In this document: piece after piece, positions 15,582-43,223 of the stretch
Position numbering within the stretch: position 1 is the stretch's first letter
How the letters are laid out: each line of letters opens with the position of its first letter
IMG/VR virus record: IMGVR_UViG_3300006802_000177
Span: 1-43,263 of that record
Source: a virus
Strand: one strand, 5' to 3'
Length of the DNA stretch: 43,263 nt
Translations under genes and position numbers: made by a program
Notes under the pieces: generated by a model
The model's input: only the letters and a program-made list of their open reading frames with translations
Databases searched by the model: none
Told to the model about the DNA's origin: nothing

Positions 15582-15909
15582 TTTCGCTGAATGATTCTAA
15601 AAATTTTTCCCTCAATTCAAGTGTTAATTCTTGTTCTACTTTAAATTTTTCAATAGAGACGATGTATAAATAGTTTTTAATTATAAAAAGATCGCTCTCT
15701 TCAATTTTGTTTGATGCAAATGAGTCTGTAAATATATCTGGAAATGCCTCTATAGTATCTTTAGCAATATCAATCAGGTTTGGTATTATCTTTGACTTTA
15801 GATATTTTTTATACTCATCAAGGGTAAAGTATTGTACTATTTGATCATATATATAAAGACAGTGCGTTTTTGTGGAAACAAATTGCTCTTCGTCTAAGAA
15901 ACAAATCAT
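15562..15909 (-). CDS. hypothetical protein (115 aa)
   Basis: Unrecognised helical acidic protein. It opens MICFLDEEQFVSTKTHCLYI and contains FTLDEYKKYLKSKIIPN. It overlaps the sugar dehydratase stop by 4 bp. Confidence 0.55.
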   Translation of the reverse strand: MICFLDEEQFVSTKTHCLYIYDQIVQYFTLDEYKKYLKSKIIPNLIDIAKDTIEAFPDIFTDSFASNKIEESDLFIIKNYLYIVSIEKFKVEQELTLELREKFLESFSENERQRR

Positions 15910-16949
15910 AATTTTAATAAATTATAGTCGTTTTGATACATTTTGTCAACTAGTTTTTTGAAATCAGTTTTTCTTTTCCATCCAAGCTCTGATTCAGCTA
16001 AAAATGGGTTGCCGCAAAGCTTATGGACTTCAGCGGGGCGATAAAATTTTGGATTTATTTTTAATAAAATTTCTCCAGTATCTTTTTTAAAAACTTCATT
16101 TTCTGGTATTTCTGGGGTTTCGTTATACCAATCGCCTTTGATGCCCGCTGACTTAAAAGACTCTTCTACAAACTCCCGAATTGTATGCATCTCCCCACTA
16201 GCAAGCACGTAATTTTTTGGATTTTTTTGGTTTAGCATCAGCCAAACCCCTTCCATGAAATCTTCGGCATCGCTCCAATCTCTTTTTGCTTCAAGATTAC
16301 CCAATTCAAAAACTGGAATCTTTTTGTTATGCTCTATAGCTAATTTAATTTTAGCAACAGAATTAGATATTTTTCTAGTAACAAAATCTAATCCCCTTCT
16401 TGTTCCTTCGTGATTAAATAGCCATCCTTGGACGGTATATAGACCATAAGACTCTTTATATACTCGTACAAGATGTCTAGCCGCACACTTGGCCGCTCCG
16501 TATGGAGATTGAGGTCTAAGTGGGTGATCTTCATCTTGTGGAGAGTAAACGACATCACCAAATTCTTCTGAAGAACCAGCGTTATAGAAACGACAATTTG
16601 TGCAAAACCTTCTTATTGATTCTAATATATGTAAAACAGAATCTGCATCAGTATTCCATGTTTGAATTGGATATTTCCAACTACCCGCAACAAAAGATTG
16701 TGCTGCGAAATTTATAAAATAATCTGGTTTTATGTCTATAATGACGTCTCTAATACTATGAGCGTCATTTAAATCCATATCGATTAAATTGAATCTTGTG
16801 TTATTTTCAAGATGCAATATATTCTCGTGATTTTTAACACTTAACCTACGAGCCGTACCATATATTTCACACTGAGTATTCTTAAGAAGGTAGTCAACCA
16901 TGTGACTACCATCTTGGCCAGTAATTCCAGTTACTATAATTTTTTTCAT
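15906..16949 (-). CDS. gmd: GDP-mannose 4,6-dehydratase
   Basis: NAD(P)-dependent short-chain dehydrogenase fold. GDP-mannose is converted to GDP-4-keto-6-deoxymannose, the precursor of GDP-fucose and GDP-rhamnose. Visible motifs: VTGITGQDGSHM (nucleotide-binding G-x-x-G-x-x-G), SSEEFG, and SPYGAAK (Y-x-x-x-K) then FNHEGTRRG, in place of the usual N-H-E-S-P-R-R-G. Length of 347 residues is typical. Phage copies may help alter host surface sugars; with the glycosyltransferases at 21514-24099 it suggests a surface or DNA glycosylation function. Confidence 0.9.
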   Translation of the reverse strand: MKKIIVTGITGQDGSHMVDYLLKNTQCEIYGTARRLSVKNHENILHLENNTRFNLIDMDLNDAHSIRDVIIDIKPDYFINFAAQSFVAGSWKYPIQTWNTDADSVLHILESIRRFCTNCRFYNAGSSEEFGDVVYSPQDEDHPLRPQSPYGAAKCAARHLVRVYKESYGLYTVQGWLFNHEGTRRGLDFVTRKISNSVAKIKLAIEHNKKIPVFELGNLEAKRDWSDAEDFMEGVWLMLNQKNPKNYVLASGEMHTIREFVEESFKSAGIKGDWYNETPEIPENEVFKKDTGEILLKINPKFYRPAEVHKLCGNPFLAESELGWKRKTDFKKLVDKMYQNDYNLLKL

Positions 16950-26835: not shown

Positions 26836-28632
26836 TTAGGGCTTTATTATTTTTTTTACCACAATATTATTATTTTTGACAGAAATTTCAAAATCTTTGT
26901 CCTCGGACAATAGCAGGGGAGCTAATTGTTTTTCTATATTGTCTTCAATTAATCTTTTGATTGGCCTAGCGCCATCTTTTTCTTTGATGGATTGATCTGT
27001 TAATATGGATAATGCTTTAGCTGTGATCTTTAATTTTATCCCAGAATTTAAAAGGTTGTTTTTTAAATTATCTAATTCAATTTTTAATATATTTTTTATT
27101 TCATCTTTGTTAAAATTCTTAAATACAAGAATATCATCTAATCTATTGATAAGCTCTGGTTTAAAAAATTTAGAAACTTCCTTCATTACCATAGAGGTGG
27201 TGTCTGTTTCTGATTCTAAGAACCCCATGTTTTTTGGAGCTTTAATTGCGTTTGCTCCAATGTTTCCAGTTAAAATGATAATTGAATTAGAAAAGCTTGC
27301 CTCCCTGCCAAAATTATCAGTTAACTTTCCTTCTTCTAATATTTGAAGTAAGATGTCAAAAACAGCAGGATCTGCTTTTTCAATTTCATCAAACAAAACA
27401 ACTGAATATGGATTTTTTCTAACTTTTTCTGTTAATTGGCCACCTTCTTCATATCCAATATAACCTGGGGATGCTCCAACCATTCTATTTGTGCTAATTT
27501 TATCCGAGTATTCGGACATATCTAATTGTATTAACTTATTTTCACTACCAAAAAATTCTTTAGCTAGAGTCTTTGCGAGAAAAGTTTTTCCAACTCCACT
27601 TGTCCCTAGGCACAAGAATGCCCCAAATGGTTTGTTTTTTTTCTTTAAAGGGGTATGTCCCCTCAGTAGACAATTATAAATTTTATCTACAGCCTCTTGT
27701 TGTCCTACGACAATTTTATTTAATCTTTTGTTTAAAGCAGAAAATCTTTTTAAGGAAGTATTATATAAGGATTCTATTGGTATTTTTGCTTTTTCTGAGA
27801 CAGCCTCATATAAATACAACTCATCAACTAATGTTTCGGAAGAGGTTTTTTGACTCATCCATTCTTGCAAAACATTTTGATATGTTTGAAACAGTTCGTT
27901 CTGCTTCTCTTTTATTAGTTTATTATTGGGGTCATGATCTTCTTGGATCATAAGGTCCTCTAGCTGTGCCTCTAGGTCTTTAGCTTTATCTGGTCTTTGA
28001 AAGTTTTTAATTTTAGCTTTTGCTCCAGACTTATCTAGTAAATCTATAGCTTTATCTGGAAAGCTTTTGTCAGTTATGTATTTATCTGCAAAATGAACAC
28101 AGAGTTCTAAGAAATGATCTGTATATAATACTCCGTGAAAACTTTCATAATTTGACTTGATTCCTTTTAGTATTTCTAAAGATTCCTCTTTTGAGGGTTG
28201 AGCAACTTTAATAGATTGAAACCTACGATCTAAAGCTCCGTCTTTTCCGATTGTTTTTTTATGTTCCTCATGAGTAGTTGCACCAATACACGTAAGTTCT
28301 CCACGAGCAAGTGCAGGTTTTAACATATTCGCCGCATCCATTGTACCTTCTCCGCTGCCTGCACCAACTAATGTATGGATTTCGTCAATAAATAAAATAA
28401 CATCTTCAGACGAGGAGGCTTCTTTAATTATTTTTTTCAATCTTTCTTCGAATTGTCCACGATATTTTGTGCCAGCAATAAGCATTGCTAAATCTAATCC
28501 ATAAATCTGTTTATTTAACAAATGCTCTGGAGCTAATCCTTTGACAATTTGCGAGGCCAAACCTTCAATTATGGCGGTTTTCCCAACTCCTGGATCACCA
28601 ATTAGAATAGGATTATTTTTTTCTTCTGACAT
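26836..28632 (-). CDS. ClpA/ClpC-type unfoldase, main part (D1 and D2 AAA+ domains)
   Basis: 598 residues from an internal ATG, but the reading is the -1 continuation of the ORF at 28602. D1: [14 protein letters not shown] (Walker A), [12 protein letters not shown] (Walker B), [12 protein letters not shown] (pore loop). A short M-like linker follows. D2: [34 protein letters not shown] (pore loop). After [11 protein letters not shown] comes NMGFLE, where MGF sits at the place of the ClpP-docking L/I/V-G-F/L loop. No ClpP gene is visible, so host ClpP is the likely partner. With the frame joined, the protein is 810 residues, the usual ClpC size. Confidence 0.85.
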
Positions 28633-29267
28633 AAGATTTCGCAGATTTGTTTAACTTCAGCATCCCTACCAATAATATTATCTATTTTTTTTTGAATTAC
28701 CAATTCATTGAAGTTAATAGCGAACCTAGATAAATATTCTAATTTATTAACATTCTGTTCGAAATTTTCATCAATATTATTGATTTGTGGCTCTGGCGTG
28801 AATGTTAAAGGCTCACTTAACTCTAGAAAGTCTTTTTTTATTGCAGCCAAAATCGTATGAGGATCTATCTGCATTTCACGACAATAGCCATTAATTGGCG
28901 AGTTGCTGTATTGAGAAAAAGCTAAAAACAAATGTTCTAAACCTAAATAATCATGATCATATTTATTTGCAATTGCATGAGCGATTTCAATTACCCTGTT
29001 TGCGTCTATAGAAAATGTAAATTTTTCAGAATTTTGCTGGGGGAAATTTTTATTCAAATCAATTAAGGTTAATACATAGGATTCTATAGCTTCAATATCT
29101 ATTTTAGACCTGACTAAAATATCGAAAATTTCATCTGTTTTAGTAGCTAAAATACCATAGCAAAGATAATTAATGTCTATAACATATGTTTCATTTTCTT
29201 CTGCTGCTTCTCTAGCTATTTGTATGGCTTCTATGGCTTTAGGGGTAAAATTTGGTAGTTTTTTCAT
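28602..29267 (-). CDS. ClpA/ClpC-type unfoldase, N-terminal part, joined by -1 frame change
   Basis: 221 residues in the zero frame. Two Clp N-domain repeats ([39 protein letters not shown]) and then [20 protein letters not shown]. The family continues K-K-x-N-N-P-x-L-I-G; here the zero frame ends at IILF after an A7 run (28616-28622), while the -1 frame reads [17 protein letters not shown]. One extra A or slippage at this run restores an intact ClpC. The run is not the canonical X-XXY-YYZ phase, so transcriptional slippage or an assembly under-call is as likely as ribosomal frameshifting. Overlaps the polymerase gene stop in TAATG. Confidence 0.85.
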
Positions 29268-39639: not shown

Positions 39640-40239
39640 TTAAGCCTGATCCAATTTAAAAATCTGACTAAAATATTCGGACACTACGTCTGCAGGGTAT
39701 TTATTCTTTCCTAGATTTACAAACTGTGTGACAAATTCTACATTTTTCTGCATGTATCCTATATTTGGATCAATCCTGTCAAGAGACGCACATAAGGGAT
39801 CATTTCTATTGTGCGTCAGTGTTGGAGGTAGTTTCATTTTTAATTTAGAGTAAGGGCAAATGCCATGTTGGGCCTCCCAGAGGTCTAATAAGAATTCTAA
39901 AGTTATATCAAATTCTTGAAATTTTGCAAGATTAGACTTGTCTCTTTTTGACTTTTTTGCTGCACGTATAAAATATCTAAAAGGAGAATATTTATCACTG
40001 GTCCCTTTCCTTGGGGCCATTCGGAAATTATCGCTAACTACTCCAGTCCATGGTTTTAAATGGCTATATCCATTTTCACCAACCGCCGCAGCCTTAACTT
40101 TGAGGTTTTTATAAAATAAATAATTTGAATTCTCTTTGATTCTCCTTGTATACTCAGACTTATCTTTCCAAAATAACTCACCAGTATGAGCGCATTTTAC
40201 TTGAACGTGCTTTCTACCATTAATTTTTTTTTCTTTCAT
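39640..40239 (-). CDS. HNH endonuclease
   Basis: Start at ATG 40239 (MKEKKINGRKHVQVKC); a longer reading would run into the tmRNA 3' end. Contains GICPYSKLKMKLPP and CASLDRIDPNIGYMQKNVEF, the S-L-D-R-I-D-x-x-x-G-Y-x-x-x-N core of HNH homing endonucleases. About 199 residues, basic. Next to the tmRNA gene, which is a plausible but unproven target. Confidence 0.8.
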   Translation of the reverse strand: MKEKKINGRKHVQVKCAHTGELFWKDKSEYTRRIKENSNYLFYKNLKVKAAAVGENGYSHLKPWTGVVSDNFRMAPRKGTSDKYSPFRYFIRAAKKSKRDKSNLAKFQEFDITLEFLLDLWEAQHGICPYSKLKMKLPPTLTHNRNDPLCASLDRIDPNIGYMQKNVEFVTQFVNLGKNKYPADVVSEYFSQIFKLDQA

Positions 40240-40281
40240 AAGATATGATACACTAAGTTTGGTGGAGGTGGAGGTAAAAAA

Positions 40282-40697
40282 TGGTGGAGGCGAGCAGAGT
40301 CGAACTGCTGTCCTAATCATCTTCAATCTTGCGACTCTACAAGCTTAGTTAATTTTTTTTATAGTTTAGATATTAACATCCAACTTCTTGTTTCATTTAT
40401 TTTACAGTTTTATGACACAAGCAAACTTTTTTCTGTTTTTGCAGATGTCATCCTCTTCTAATTTTATCTGCGTCCAAAAAGAAAAGGGGTAGCTTATGCT
40501 ACAGCAGCCACTTGATGCGCGACACTCTTGCGAGTGACAACCTTGCGAGAAGCAACCTTCTTTGCAGGGTTAAAACGATCAAGAAGACCATTTATAAGTT
40601 TAGACTTGGCACTTATATACCACGGGCTTTTTGAGGAGCCAGCCCACTCCTGCTTGCTACGCAAGTATCCAATATTAGTCGAATCCAATACGCCCCC
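40282..40697 (-). ncRNA. ssrA: tmRNA (one-piece), 416 nt, with a 38-residue tag frame
   Basis: The 5' end GGGGGCGTATTGGATTCGAC and 3' end CTGCTCGCCTCCACCA form a 7-bp acceptor stem with the G3-U70 alanine identity pair and an encoded CCA. The T arm is AGCAG-TTCGACT-CTGCT. H2 pairs CTTGCG with CGCAAG and GCAAGC with GCTTGT. Pseudoknot 1 is AGGAG/CTCCT with GGGCT/AGCCC. The resume codon GCC starts at nt 88 (40610), after ATATAAGT. The tag opens AKSKLINGLLDRFNP, continues through a basic KKVASRK and VVTRKSV region and ends HQVAAVA, stop at 40494. The stop lies in a GTAGC/GCTAC hairpin loop, as in helix 5. Confidence 0.95.
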
Positions 40698-40721: not shown

Positions 40722-40750
40722 ACTTTACACTATATGGGAATTAATGTCAA
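40722..40750 (-). promoter_or_regulatory. tmRNA promoter
   Basis: TTGACA (40745-40750), 17-bp spacer, TAAAGT (40722-40727). Expected start near 40715, leaving a short 5' precursor that RNase P would remove at 40697. Confidence 0.8.
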
Positions 40751-42560: not shown

Positions 42561-42809
42561 TTAAAGATATTCTAAGCCTATTGGCCCTTGTTGAAAATAA
42601 GATACATGCCTAGCAGAGTTTGGCGTAAATGAATCACATACGATTGGAGAAAAAAGTTCTATTGGCCCTATCGGACCAAAATTAGTGCCATCAATGATTA
42701 AATTCTCAGCCTTTAGTATTGAGGTGATATACAATCTATTGCCAGAACTAGGACTAACTTCGCTAGTATCTGCATTAGTTTGACTAATAATACCATCTGA
42801 ATCTAGCAT
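42561..42809 (-). CDS. tandem paralog 2, possible structural protein (82 aa)
   Basis: Shares with the upstream gene the segments SPSSGNRLYITSILKAENLI (PSSGSKKLYITAILKSGNLV there), IDGT, P-I/V-x-C-D-S/T-F-T-P and VSYFQQ/VSYFEQ. Short beta-rich, without charged helices. TAATG overlap between the two. Tandem duplication of a small phage protein, possibly a virion decoration protein; role inferred only from location. Confidence 0.6.
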   Translation of the reverse strand: MLDSDGIISQTNADTSEVSPSSGNRLYITSILKAENLIIDGTNFGPIGPIELFSPIVCDSFTPNSARHVSYFQQGPIGLEYL

Positions 42810-43036
42810 TATTGCTCAAAGTAAGATACTTGCCCAGTAGAAGCTGGAGTAAAGGTATCGCAGATCACTGGAGACGGAAATGAGCACGGCCCTACCGACG
42901 AGGCTGTTACTCCATCTATTACTAAATTACCAGACTTTAATATAGCTGTAATATACAGCTTTTTGCTTCCAGAACTTGGGGTTATTGCTGATGTACCAAT
43001 GCTAATCTTACTTGGAATTGTCTTTGGGCTTGCCAT
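42809..43036 (-). CDS. tandem paralog 1, possible structural protein (75 aa)
   Basis: Begins MASPKTIPSKISIGTSAITP; the rest aligns with the gene at 42561 (LYITAILKSGNLVIDGVT; FPSPVICDTFTPAS; QVSYFEQ). Lies 3' of the MPLP-type gene with a 29-bp overlap. Confidence 0.6.
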   Translation of the reverse strand: MASPKTIPSKISIGTSAITPSSGSKKLYITAILKSGNLVIDGVTASSVGPCSFPSPVICDTFTPASTGQVSYFEQ

Positions 43037-43184
43037 AATTTGTATCCTCCTTTTTCCATTGACTCAAACAAACTGCTATACGTTGCTTGATATTTTTAAA
43101 TTCTTTTTTAGACTCCTCATCACTTAAACAGCGATTCATAAAATCATCTTTAGATTCTTTTGTCTGTTTAGATGGCAAGGGCAT
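43008..43184 (-). CDS. MPLP...CLSQW family small phage protein
   Basis: Start at ATG 43184 (MPLPSKQTKESKDDFMNRC); the pattern MPLPxxxxxEsxDdFxxRCxsDexxxxEFxxxkQRxAVCxSQW is a short family often found beside or fused to HK97-type prohead proteases. That suggests a capsid module beyond the right edge of the window. 58 residues. Promoter at 43195. Confidence 0.75.
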   Translation of the reverse strand: MPLPSKQTKESKDDFMNRCLSDEESKKEFKNIKQRIAVCLSQWKKEDTNYGKPKDNSK

Positions 43185-43194
43185 AATACATTCT

Positions 43195-43223
43195 ATTACA
43201 CAATAATCAGCAGAAAATCTCAA
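43195..43223 (-). promoter_or_regulatory. sigma70-like promoter, near-leaderless
   Basis: TTGAGA (43218-43223), 17-bp spacer, TGTAAT (43195-43200), then 10 nt to the ATG at 43184. The remaining 40 bases to the window end show no gene. Confidence 0.5.

Follow-up and report, generated by a model that had tools for sequence, protein, structure and literature searches.

A one-piece phage tmRNA whose basic tag probably has 38 residues and appears to be one of a clade-wide repertoire of long, charged tags

Identity and architecture of the tmRNA gene

The DNA analysed here (the window) is a 43,263-base virus fragment with phage replication genes for UvsX/RecA, DnaB, a DnaE-type polymerase and an exonuclease. 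The following features define the tmRNA locus.

40282 to 40697, minus strand: one-piece tmRNA (ssrA), 416 nt, CCA encoded (Rfam RF00023 and ARAGORN)
40722 to 40750, minus strand: predicted sigma-70-like promoter, TTGACA-17-TAAAGT, just upstream of the tmRNA (a sequence match alone, 10 of 12 consensus positions)
40624 to 40651, minus strand: pseudoknot 1 (PK1), AGGAG/CUCCU and GGGCU/AGCCC, nt 47-74 (direct reading; Rfam PK1 region)
40489 to 40502, minus strand: stop-codon hairpin GUAGC-AUAA-GCUAC, UAA in the loop (folding; one compensated pair, U-A/C-G, in relative L172)

The gene matched the RF00023 model completely (model positions 1-374; E 4e-45) and scored 114.6 bits, above the gathering score of 47. 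Rfam and ARAGORN agreed exactly on the two ends, 40282 and 40697. Direct reading gave a 7-bp acceptor stem (GGGGGCG/CGCCUCC) with G3-U70, followed by ACCA, and the T arm was evident from both the sequence and the Rfam alignment. The original prediction had claimed the hallmarks of a one-piece tmRNA for this locus. They were confirmed by the complete RF00023 match and by direct reading, which showed G3-U70, PK1, the A at position -4 of the resume codon and the stop codon in a hairpin loop. In addition, the whole RNA folded better than its shuffles (z -3.3). A PK2-like pairing, GACGCAGAU/AUCUGC, was kept across the phage tmRNA family; the Rfam posteriors were low in the middle region of the window RNA. 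We conclude that 40697-40282 (minus strand) is a one-piece phage tmRNA.

Another gene lies close to the 3' end of the tmRNA.

39640 to 40239, minus strand: HNH/endonuclease VII-like gene, 199 aa, 43 nt 3' of the tmRNA (PHROG 3322/3118/1035)

Homologues of this gene were seen at only 5 other tmRNA loci (L203, which is a near-copy of the window, L108, L176, L195 and L220), at 33-85 nt 3' of the tmRNA and across four tag classes. This gene resembles a free-standing endonuclease of the homing type that is associated with the 3' ends of tmRNAs. Separately, a second CCACCA-type end (CTCCACCATTTTTTACCTCCACCTCCACCA) was observed past the tmRNA 3' terminus at 40240-40285 of the window, and likewise at L136, L146 and L176. 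In addition, T arms vary among close relatives. Both observations look as though an insertion had replaced the 3' part of the tmRNA gene.

Resume codon and length of the tag

The features that bear on the reading frame of the tag are listed below.

40608 to 40610, minus strand: likely resume codon GCC, nt 88-90, A at -4 and U at -5 (Rfam alignment; kept in L172, L218 and L393)
40494 to 40610, minus strand: likely tag frame, 38 codons plus UAA, AKSKLINGLLDRFNPAKKVASRKVVTRKSVAHQVAAVA (translation; dN/dS; equal length in four distinct phage tmRNAs)
40587 to 40589, minus strand: alternative in-frame resume codon GGU (GGT in the DNA), nt 109 (ARAGORN choice; 31 aa, net +6)
40593 to 40617, minus strand: predicted hairpin UAUAAGU/ACUUAUA, resume codon in an 11-nt loop (alifold of four sequences)

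Read from GCC, the tag has 38 residues with nine Lys/Arg and one Asp (net charge +8), it ends in AAVA, and the frame closes with UAA at 40496-40494. These are the frame, the basic composition with a single acidic residue and the hydrophobic degron-like end that had been described for the locus; the partial repeat proposed for the tag core is also real, with CTCGCAAG present twice. Since a stop-free frame of 38 codons is expected by chance in about 7% of cases at the window composition, the length of the frame by itself is weak evidence, and conservation is what counts.

ARAGORN called GGU at nt 109 as the resume codon. In that case, the true tag would be the 31-residue GLLDRFNPAKKV...AAVA and the first 7 codons would be an untranslated leader. 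Beyond the program's own call, this reading draws on the UA at -5/-4, which is present at both codons and is kept at GGU in L172, L218 and L393. It also draws on the lack of a clear synonymous excess over the first 7 codons, and on the predicted hairpin, which covers GCC; 7 of its 7 pairs are kept in the four sequences, one through a G-U change. However, the distance from the end of PK1 (nt 74) is 34 nt for GGU and 13 nt for GCC. In E. coli, the spacing is 12 nt and the A at -4 sets the frame (PMC2481249). The conserved resume region of the Rfam model aligned onto GCC with high posterior, so the covariance-model check suggested for the resume codon favours the long tag. The sequence around the codon is UAUAAGU followed by GCC; the frame and UAUAAGU-GCCAAR upstream of GGU are conserved in four distinct sequences of the 38-aa type, and AUAAGU-GCC-AAR resembles the resume site of L127, AUAAGU-GCU-AAA. 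Finally, the longest ARAGORN call on all extracted family members was 32 residues, and the program agreed with 0 of the 14 distinct family tags of at least 33 aa, for which its calls were shorter, in another frame or absent. Because of the PK1 spacing, the Rfam alignment, the conserved upstream codons and this behaviour of ARAGORN on long tags, we prefer GCC to GGU. The 31-residue reading is quite improbable, and a window tag of 38 residues from GCC is likely, although not proven. Given that ARAGORN truncated or missed all family tags of at least 33 residues, tag collections built with it may under-record long tags.

A repertoire of tags in related phages

Descriptions of trans-translation tags usually present them as short degrons of a single basic type. 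For a survey of relatives, the window DNA polymerase was aligned with five phage homologues, which led to 74 IMG/VR contigs (48-68% identity). Together with G001, a near-identical contig, these made 75 contigs, of which 15 had a tmRNA over the cut-off. A search with a pattern for the conserved PK2-like element retrieved 116 viral stretches; where the tmRNA start was readable, most belonged to the tmRNA family of the window. The resulting tag set comprised 108 loci (some on one contig), which gave 68 distinct tags, with L393 added. On one common scaffold, the 68 distinct tags ranged from 19 to 41 aa and from -11 to +12 in net charge, as in these examples.

AKNINSVEPFVSEELALAA: 19 aa, net -2
GNKNRVKAFGLKAKKLALAA: 20 aa, net +6
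GNKNRVKALGFKNRVAAKRFGFKRQKLALAA: 31 aa, net +10, looks like an internal duplication
GKKNRVSRAIGFKNRLAAKRGGLRKTRRLALAA: 33 aa, net +12
GEGYDSIEELLEAAREEYDNLVQFEQAEELEMVA: 34 aa, net -11
GEGYNTVEELLEAAREEYAVSQVIEEATALYGELEELEMAA: 41 aa, net -11

The 38-residue type was present in four distinct sequences, those of the window (with its near-copy L203), L172, L218 and L393/L394, and a coding-pattern scan of the viral collection for GLLDRFNPxKK matched only tmRNAs of this type. Basic tags of 20-33 aa were common in the phage clade of the window. Close relatives carried equally long tags that were strongly acidic (-9 to -11); therefore, what recurs is the great length and the size of the charge, not its positive sign. 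Nearly all clade tags ended in ALAA, AVA, AMAA, MVA or AAVA. The tag of L103 (G072, 43546-43974), ANTNVDMEMAPSLAEADEILAKFGFVEDEALLLVE, ends in LLLVE, with a charged residue and not a hydrophobic AA-type degron.

The window tag had no match in Pfam or PDB. A pattern scan for further AVA-ending tags, with a gap range that left out the window itself, returned chance matches only, and an acidic-tag scan added only chance matches in protein genes (L395 and L396). When the bacterial genome collection was scanned for hosts with the PK2 pattern, nearly all matches were due to chance and one was a tmRNA of the same family. This lone match, L269, lies on JAQBUS010000001.1, a 49-kb contig of a 'Proteobacteria bacterium' MAG, and has a 40-aa acidic tag; the contig is probably a binned phage. 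By the PK2 pattern, the window RNA belongs to a phage-only tmRNA lineage, within a clade of mostly large phages.

The acidic tags occupied three places on the scaffold tree. A single clade was not rejected by the AU test for the acidic tags (p 0.41) or for the 31-aa basic tags (p 0.09). Tag swapping between scaffolds is not needed, as replacement of the whole tmRNA gene explains the tree equally well at these p values.

Selection on the tag and folding of its frame

We compared the tag frames among relatives. Between the window and L218, the tag showed dN 0.10 and dS 0.66 (dN/dS 0.15), with 82% nucleotide identity in the tag and 61% in the rest of the RNA, and 13 of the 21 differences fell at third codon positions (p 0.007). 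The signal was weaker between the window and L172 (dN/dS 0.39), and the third-position excess was not clear (p 0.12). In other classes, dN/dS was about 0.07-0.21 for 31-aa basic tags, with most pairs at about 0.1-0.2, and 0.03-0.6 for 34-aa acidic tags. These ratios indicate that the tag class of the window and the other long classes are under purifying selection. The window tag looks like a selected part, and it belongs to a set of tags among which some are long and acidic. The larger finding is that the clade as a whole carries a range of long tags of extreme charge on a single tmRNA scaffold. This makes the function of the tag apart from ribosome rescue directly testable over 19-41 residues and charges of -11 to +12.

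The tag frame also has structure of its own.

40523 to 40536, minus strand: hairpin CACUC-GCAA-GAGUG inside the tag frame, coding T-R-K-S (comparison of relatives)

One pair of this hairpin is A-U, G-C or G-U across relatives, the tetraloop is GCAA or GUAA, and the outermost pair is lost in L218. Tag frames were more stable than their synonymous recodings, with a mean z of -1.35 over 67 non-independent tags; the values were -2.0 for the window and -2.6 for L172. The tag might thus be mostly a by-product of RNA structure, in which hairpin loops such as CUCGCAAGAG code R-K and the peptide matters little beyond the degron. The extra stability of the frames and the compensated pairs among the 38-aa set of the window fit this explanation. 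However, amino-acid changes are suppressed compared with silent ones, one relative has lost several pairs of the consensus fold, and acidic and basic tags fold comparably, which means that structure does not dictate charge. We regard this explanation as rather unlikely.

ssrA is a frequent integration site of phages, and the 3' end of the tmRNA is followed after 43 nt by an HNH gene. Both facts would suit a decaying or inactive copy, such as the relic of an integration at host ssrA. Nevertheless, every structural hallmark is intact and the tag is under purifying selection across diverged scaffolds. Moreover, the lineage is phage-only by the PK2 pattern, and the sole tmRNA of this kind from the bacterial collection sits on a phage-like MAG contig. 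A relic is very improbable.

Clp, ClpP and SmpB genes in the phage records

An unfoldase gene is encoded elsewhere in the window.

26836 to 29267, minus strand: ClpC-like double-AAA+ unfoldase in two ORFs, 28602-29267 and 26836-28632 (PHROG 4871; closest PDB sequence ClpC)

The gene is broken by a 1-nt gap, and an intact 810-aa frame is present in contig G001, which is 99.96% identical; the split at 28602-28632 is either an assembly error or a fresh frameshift. L302, an intact homologue of the split ORFs, matched PHROG 4871, has an MGF loop and is closest to ClpC among PDB sequences. The phage Clp shares with ClpC/ClpA unfoldases a Clp N domain, two AAA+ domains and the [IVM]GF ClpP-type loop; it differs from them in being phage-encoded, with ClpP mostly absent alongside. 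ClpP was found in 1 of 40 phage records, G098 (the record of L210; 97 bits), together with a ClpC-like ATPase and a tmRNA. A ClpC-like double-AAA+ protein was present in 30 of the 40 (a weak match in G091 is left out of the count), and the [IVM]GF-type loop was seen in most sampled phage Clps, with MTF in one. SmpB was found in none of the 40 phage records by a search that was positive in 10 of 14 controls; hence, host SmpB is presumed.

Clp was also present in 17 of 30 relatives in which no full tmRNA was found. Thus, Clp belongs to the core genes of the clade and is not a partner of the tmRNA as such, and an association between tmRNA and Clp was rejected. The Clps of L183 (tag net -9) and L092 (tag net +1) are sisters with unrelated tags, and the window and L172 have a common tag and distant Clps. 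At least 5 changes between acidic and basic tags are needed on the Clp tree, and the Mantel r was 0.14 for tag and Clp versus 0.45 for tag and scaffold. Coevolution of the tag with the phage Clp as a simple rule was therefore rejected. The Mycoplasma type of covariation between tag and protease was not seen for the phage Clp, since tag class does not follow Clp phylogeny. Accordingly, Clp proteases may well be the destination of the degron end, and the tag body may respond to something different, perhaps to factors of the host. A phage unfoldase docked on host ClpP is a plausible reader of the tag, given its ClpP-type loop. We also considered a pairing of basic tags with acidic N-terminal regions of Clp; the Mann-Whitney p was 0.011 for residues 1-180, an arbitrary cut-off, which is suggestive, but with only 5 independent pairs the trend is not significant.

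Comparison with known tmRNAs

Bacterial one-piece tmRNAs (RF00023) and the window RNA have in common a tRNA-like domain with G3-U70, PK1, the A at -4, a tag frame, a stop codon in a hairpin loop and a 3' CCA. With the Rfam model, nearly all full-length bacterial matches scored 138-243 bits, compared with 115 for the window. In a gammaproteobacterial control, the 50 tmRNA calls of ARAGORN (a non-random sample of one class, 30 top-scoring loci and 20 hand-chosen, subject to the length ceiling of the program and with at least 1 call that looks spurious) had tags of 10-26 aa and net charges of -4 to +2, whereas the window tag has 38 aa and +8.

Phages with a tmRNA are already known: one survey counts 402 among 18,146 phages (PMC9004378), and phage tmRNAs are also listed in PMC4131195. 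Like those of mycobacteriophages, phage G and the OM43 phage Melnitz, the window has ssrA without smpB, and host factors are presumed. Marine phage tmRNAs of the Melnitz type are two-piece, whereas that of the window is one-piece. The openly readable literature, including passages of PMC9004378 and PMC4131195, yielded no report of phage tags that are long or strongly charged, and novelty is provisional to that extent. The window adds a real phage tmRNA whose basic tag probably has 38 residues.

Mycoplasma and Mesoplasma have an extended tmRNA tag of about 27 aa with an AFA end, which is recognised by Lon. This tag reportedly coevolved with Lon in Mycoplasma, a finding attributed to a 2009 paper by Ge and Karzai that PMC3985003 cites. 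Their tags and that of the window are alike in unusual length and a non-ALAA end (AFA there, AVA here); the window tag is longer, more basic and phage-borne, with a ClpC-like unfoldase alongside.

Proposed function of the extended tag

We favour the reading that the RNA is a working phage ssrA that uses host SmpB, that its AAVA degron leads to host ClpXP/ClpAP or the phage ClpC-like unfoldase, and that the extension is a contact for proteolysis; on balance this is probable. During infection, host mRNAs would be broken and ribosomes would stall. The host enzyme would load alanine onto the phage tmRNA, and host EF-Tu and SmpB would deliver it. It would replace the truncated mRNA, and the ribosome would read the 38-codon tag from GCC at nt 88; the freed ribosomes could then serve phage translation. 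The released fragment would end in the hydrophobic degron AAVA and pass to host ClpXP/ClpAP or to the phage unfoldase docked on host ClpP. Ahead of the degron lies the long charged stretch, a conserved peptide module. By analogy with the extended Mycoplasma tag and Lon, it most likely serves proteolysis as an extended engagement arm or as a contact for an adaptor.

The extension could otherwise be an effector, a cationic peptide (anionic in relatives) that brings fragments to nucleic acid, a membrane or some other partner, or protects them against the proteases of the host. Such a function would suit a net charge that is extreme in both directions, with no such extreme in the 50 gammaproteobacterial calls, as well as the purifying selection on the tags and the LLLVE end of L103. 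On the other hand, nearly all tags keep the hydrophobic degron-like end, the sign of the charge differs between lineages, and the tags have no homology to any Pfam or PDB sequence. We consider an effector unlikely, and a nucleic-acid-binding or membrane-binding role for the cationic tag is possible but unsupported. More speculatively, and with considerable doubt, the tmRNA might be a programmable peptide-appending device whose exchangeable charged tag body (+12 to -11) is selected for a role beyond simple degradation. If so, programmable tags might steer rescued host fragments to a fate chosen by the phage, or evade or match the proteolysis adaptors of the host.

Two further loci of the window were recorded. 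At 42561-43223, small unannotated ORFs of 82, 75 and possibly 71 aa lie in tandem; they are paralogous and share the motifs LYIT.ILK..NL.IDG and F..PVICD.FTP. A GDP-mannose 4,6-dehydratase-type gene (PF16363) is located at 15906-16949.
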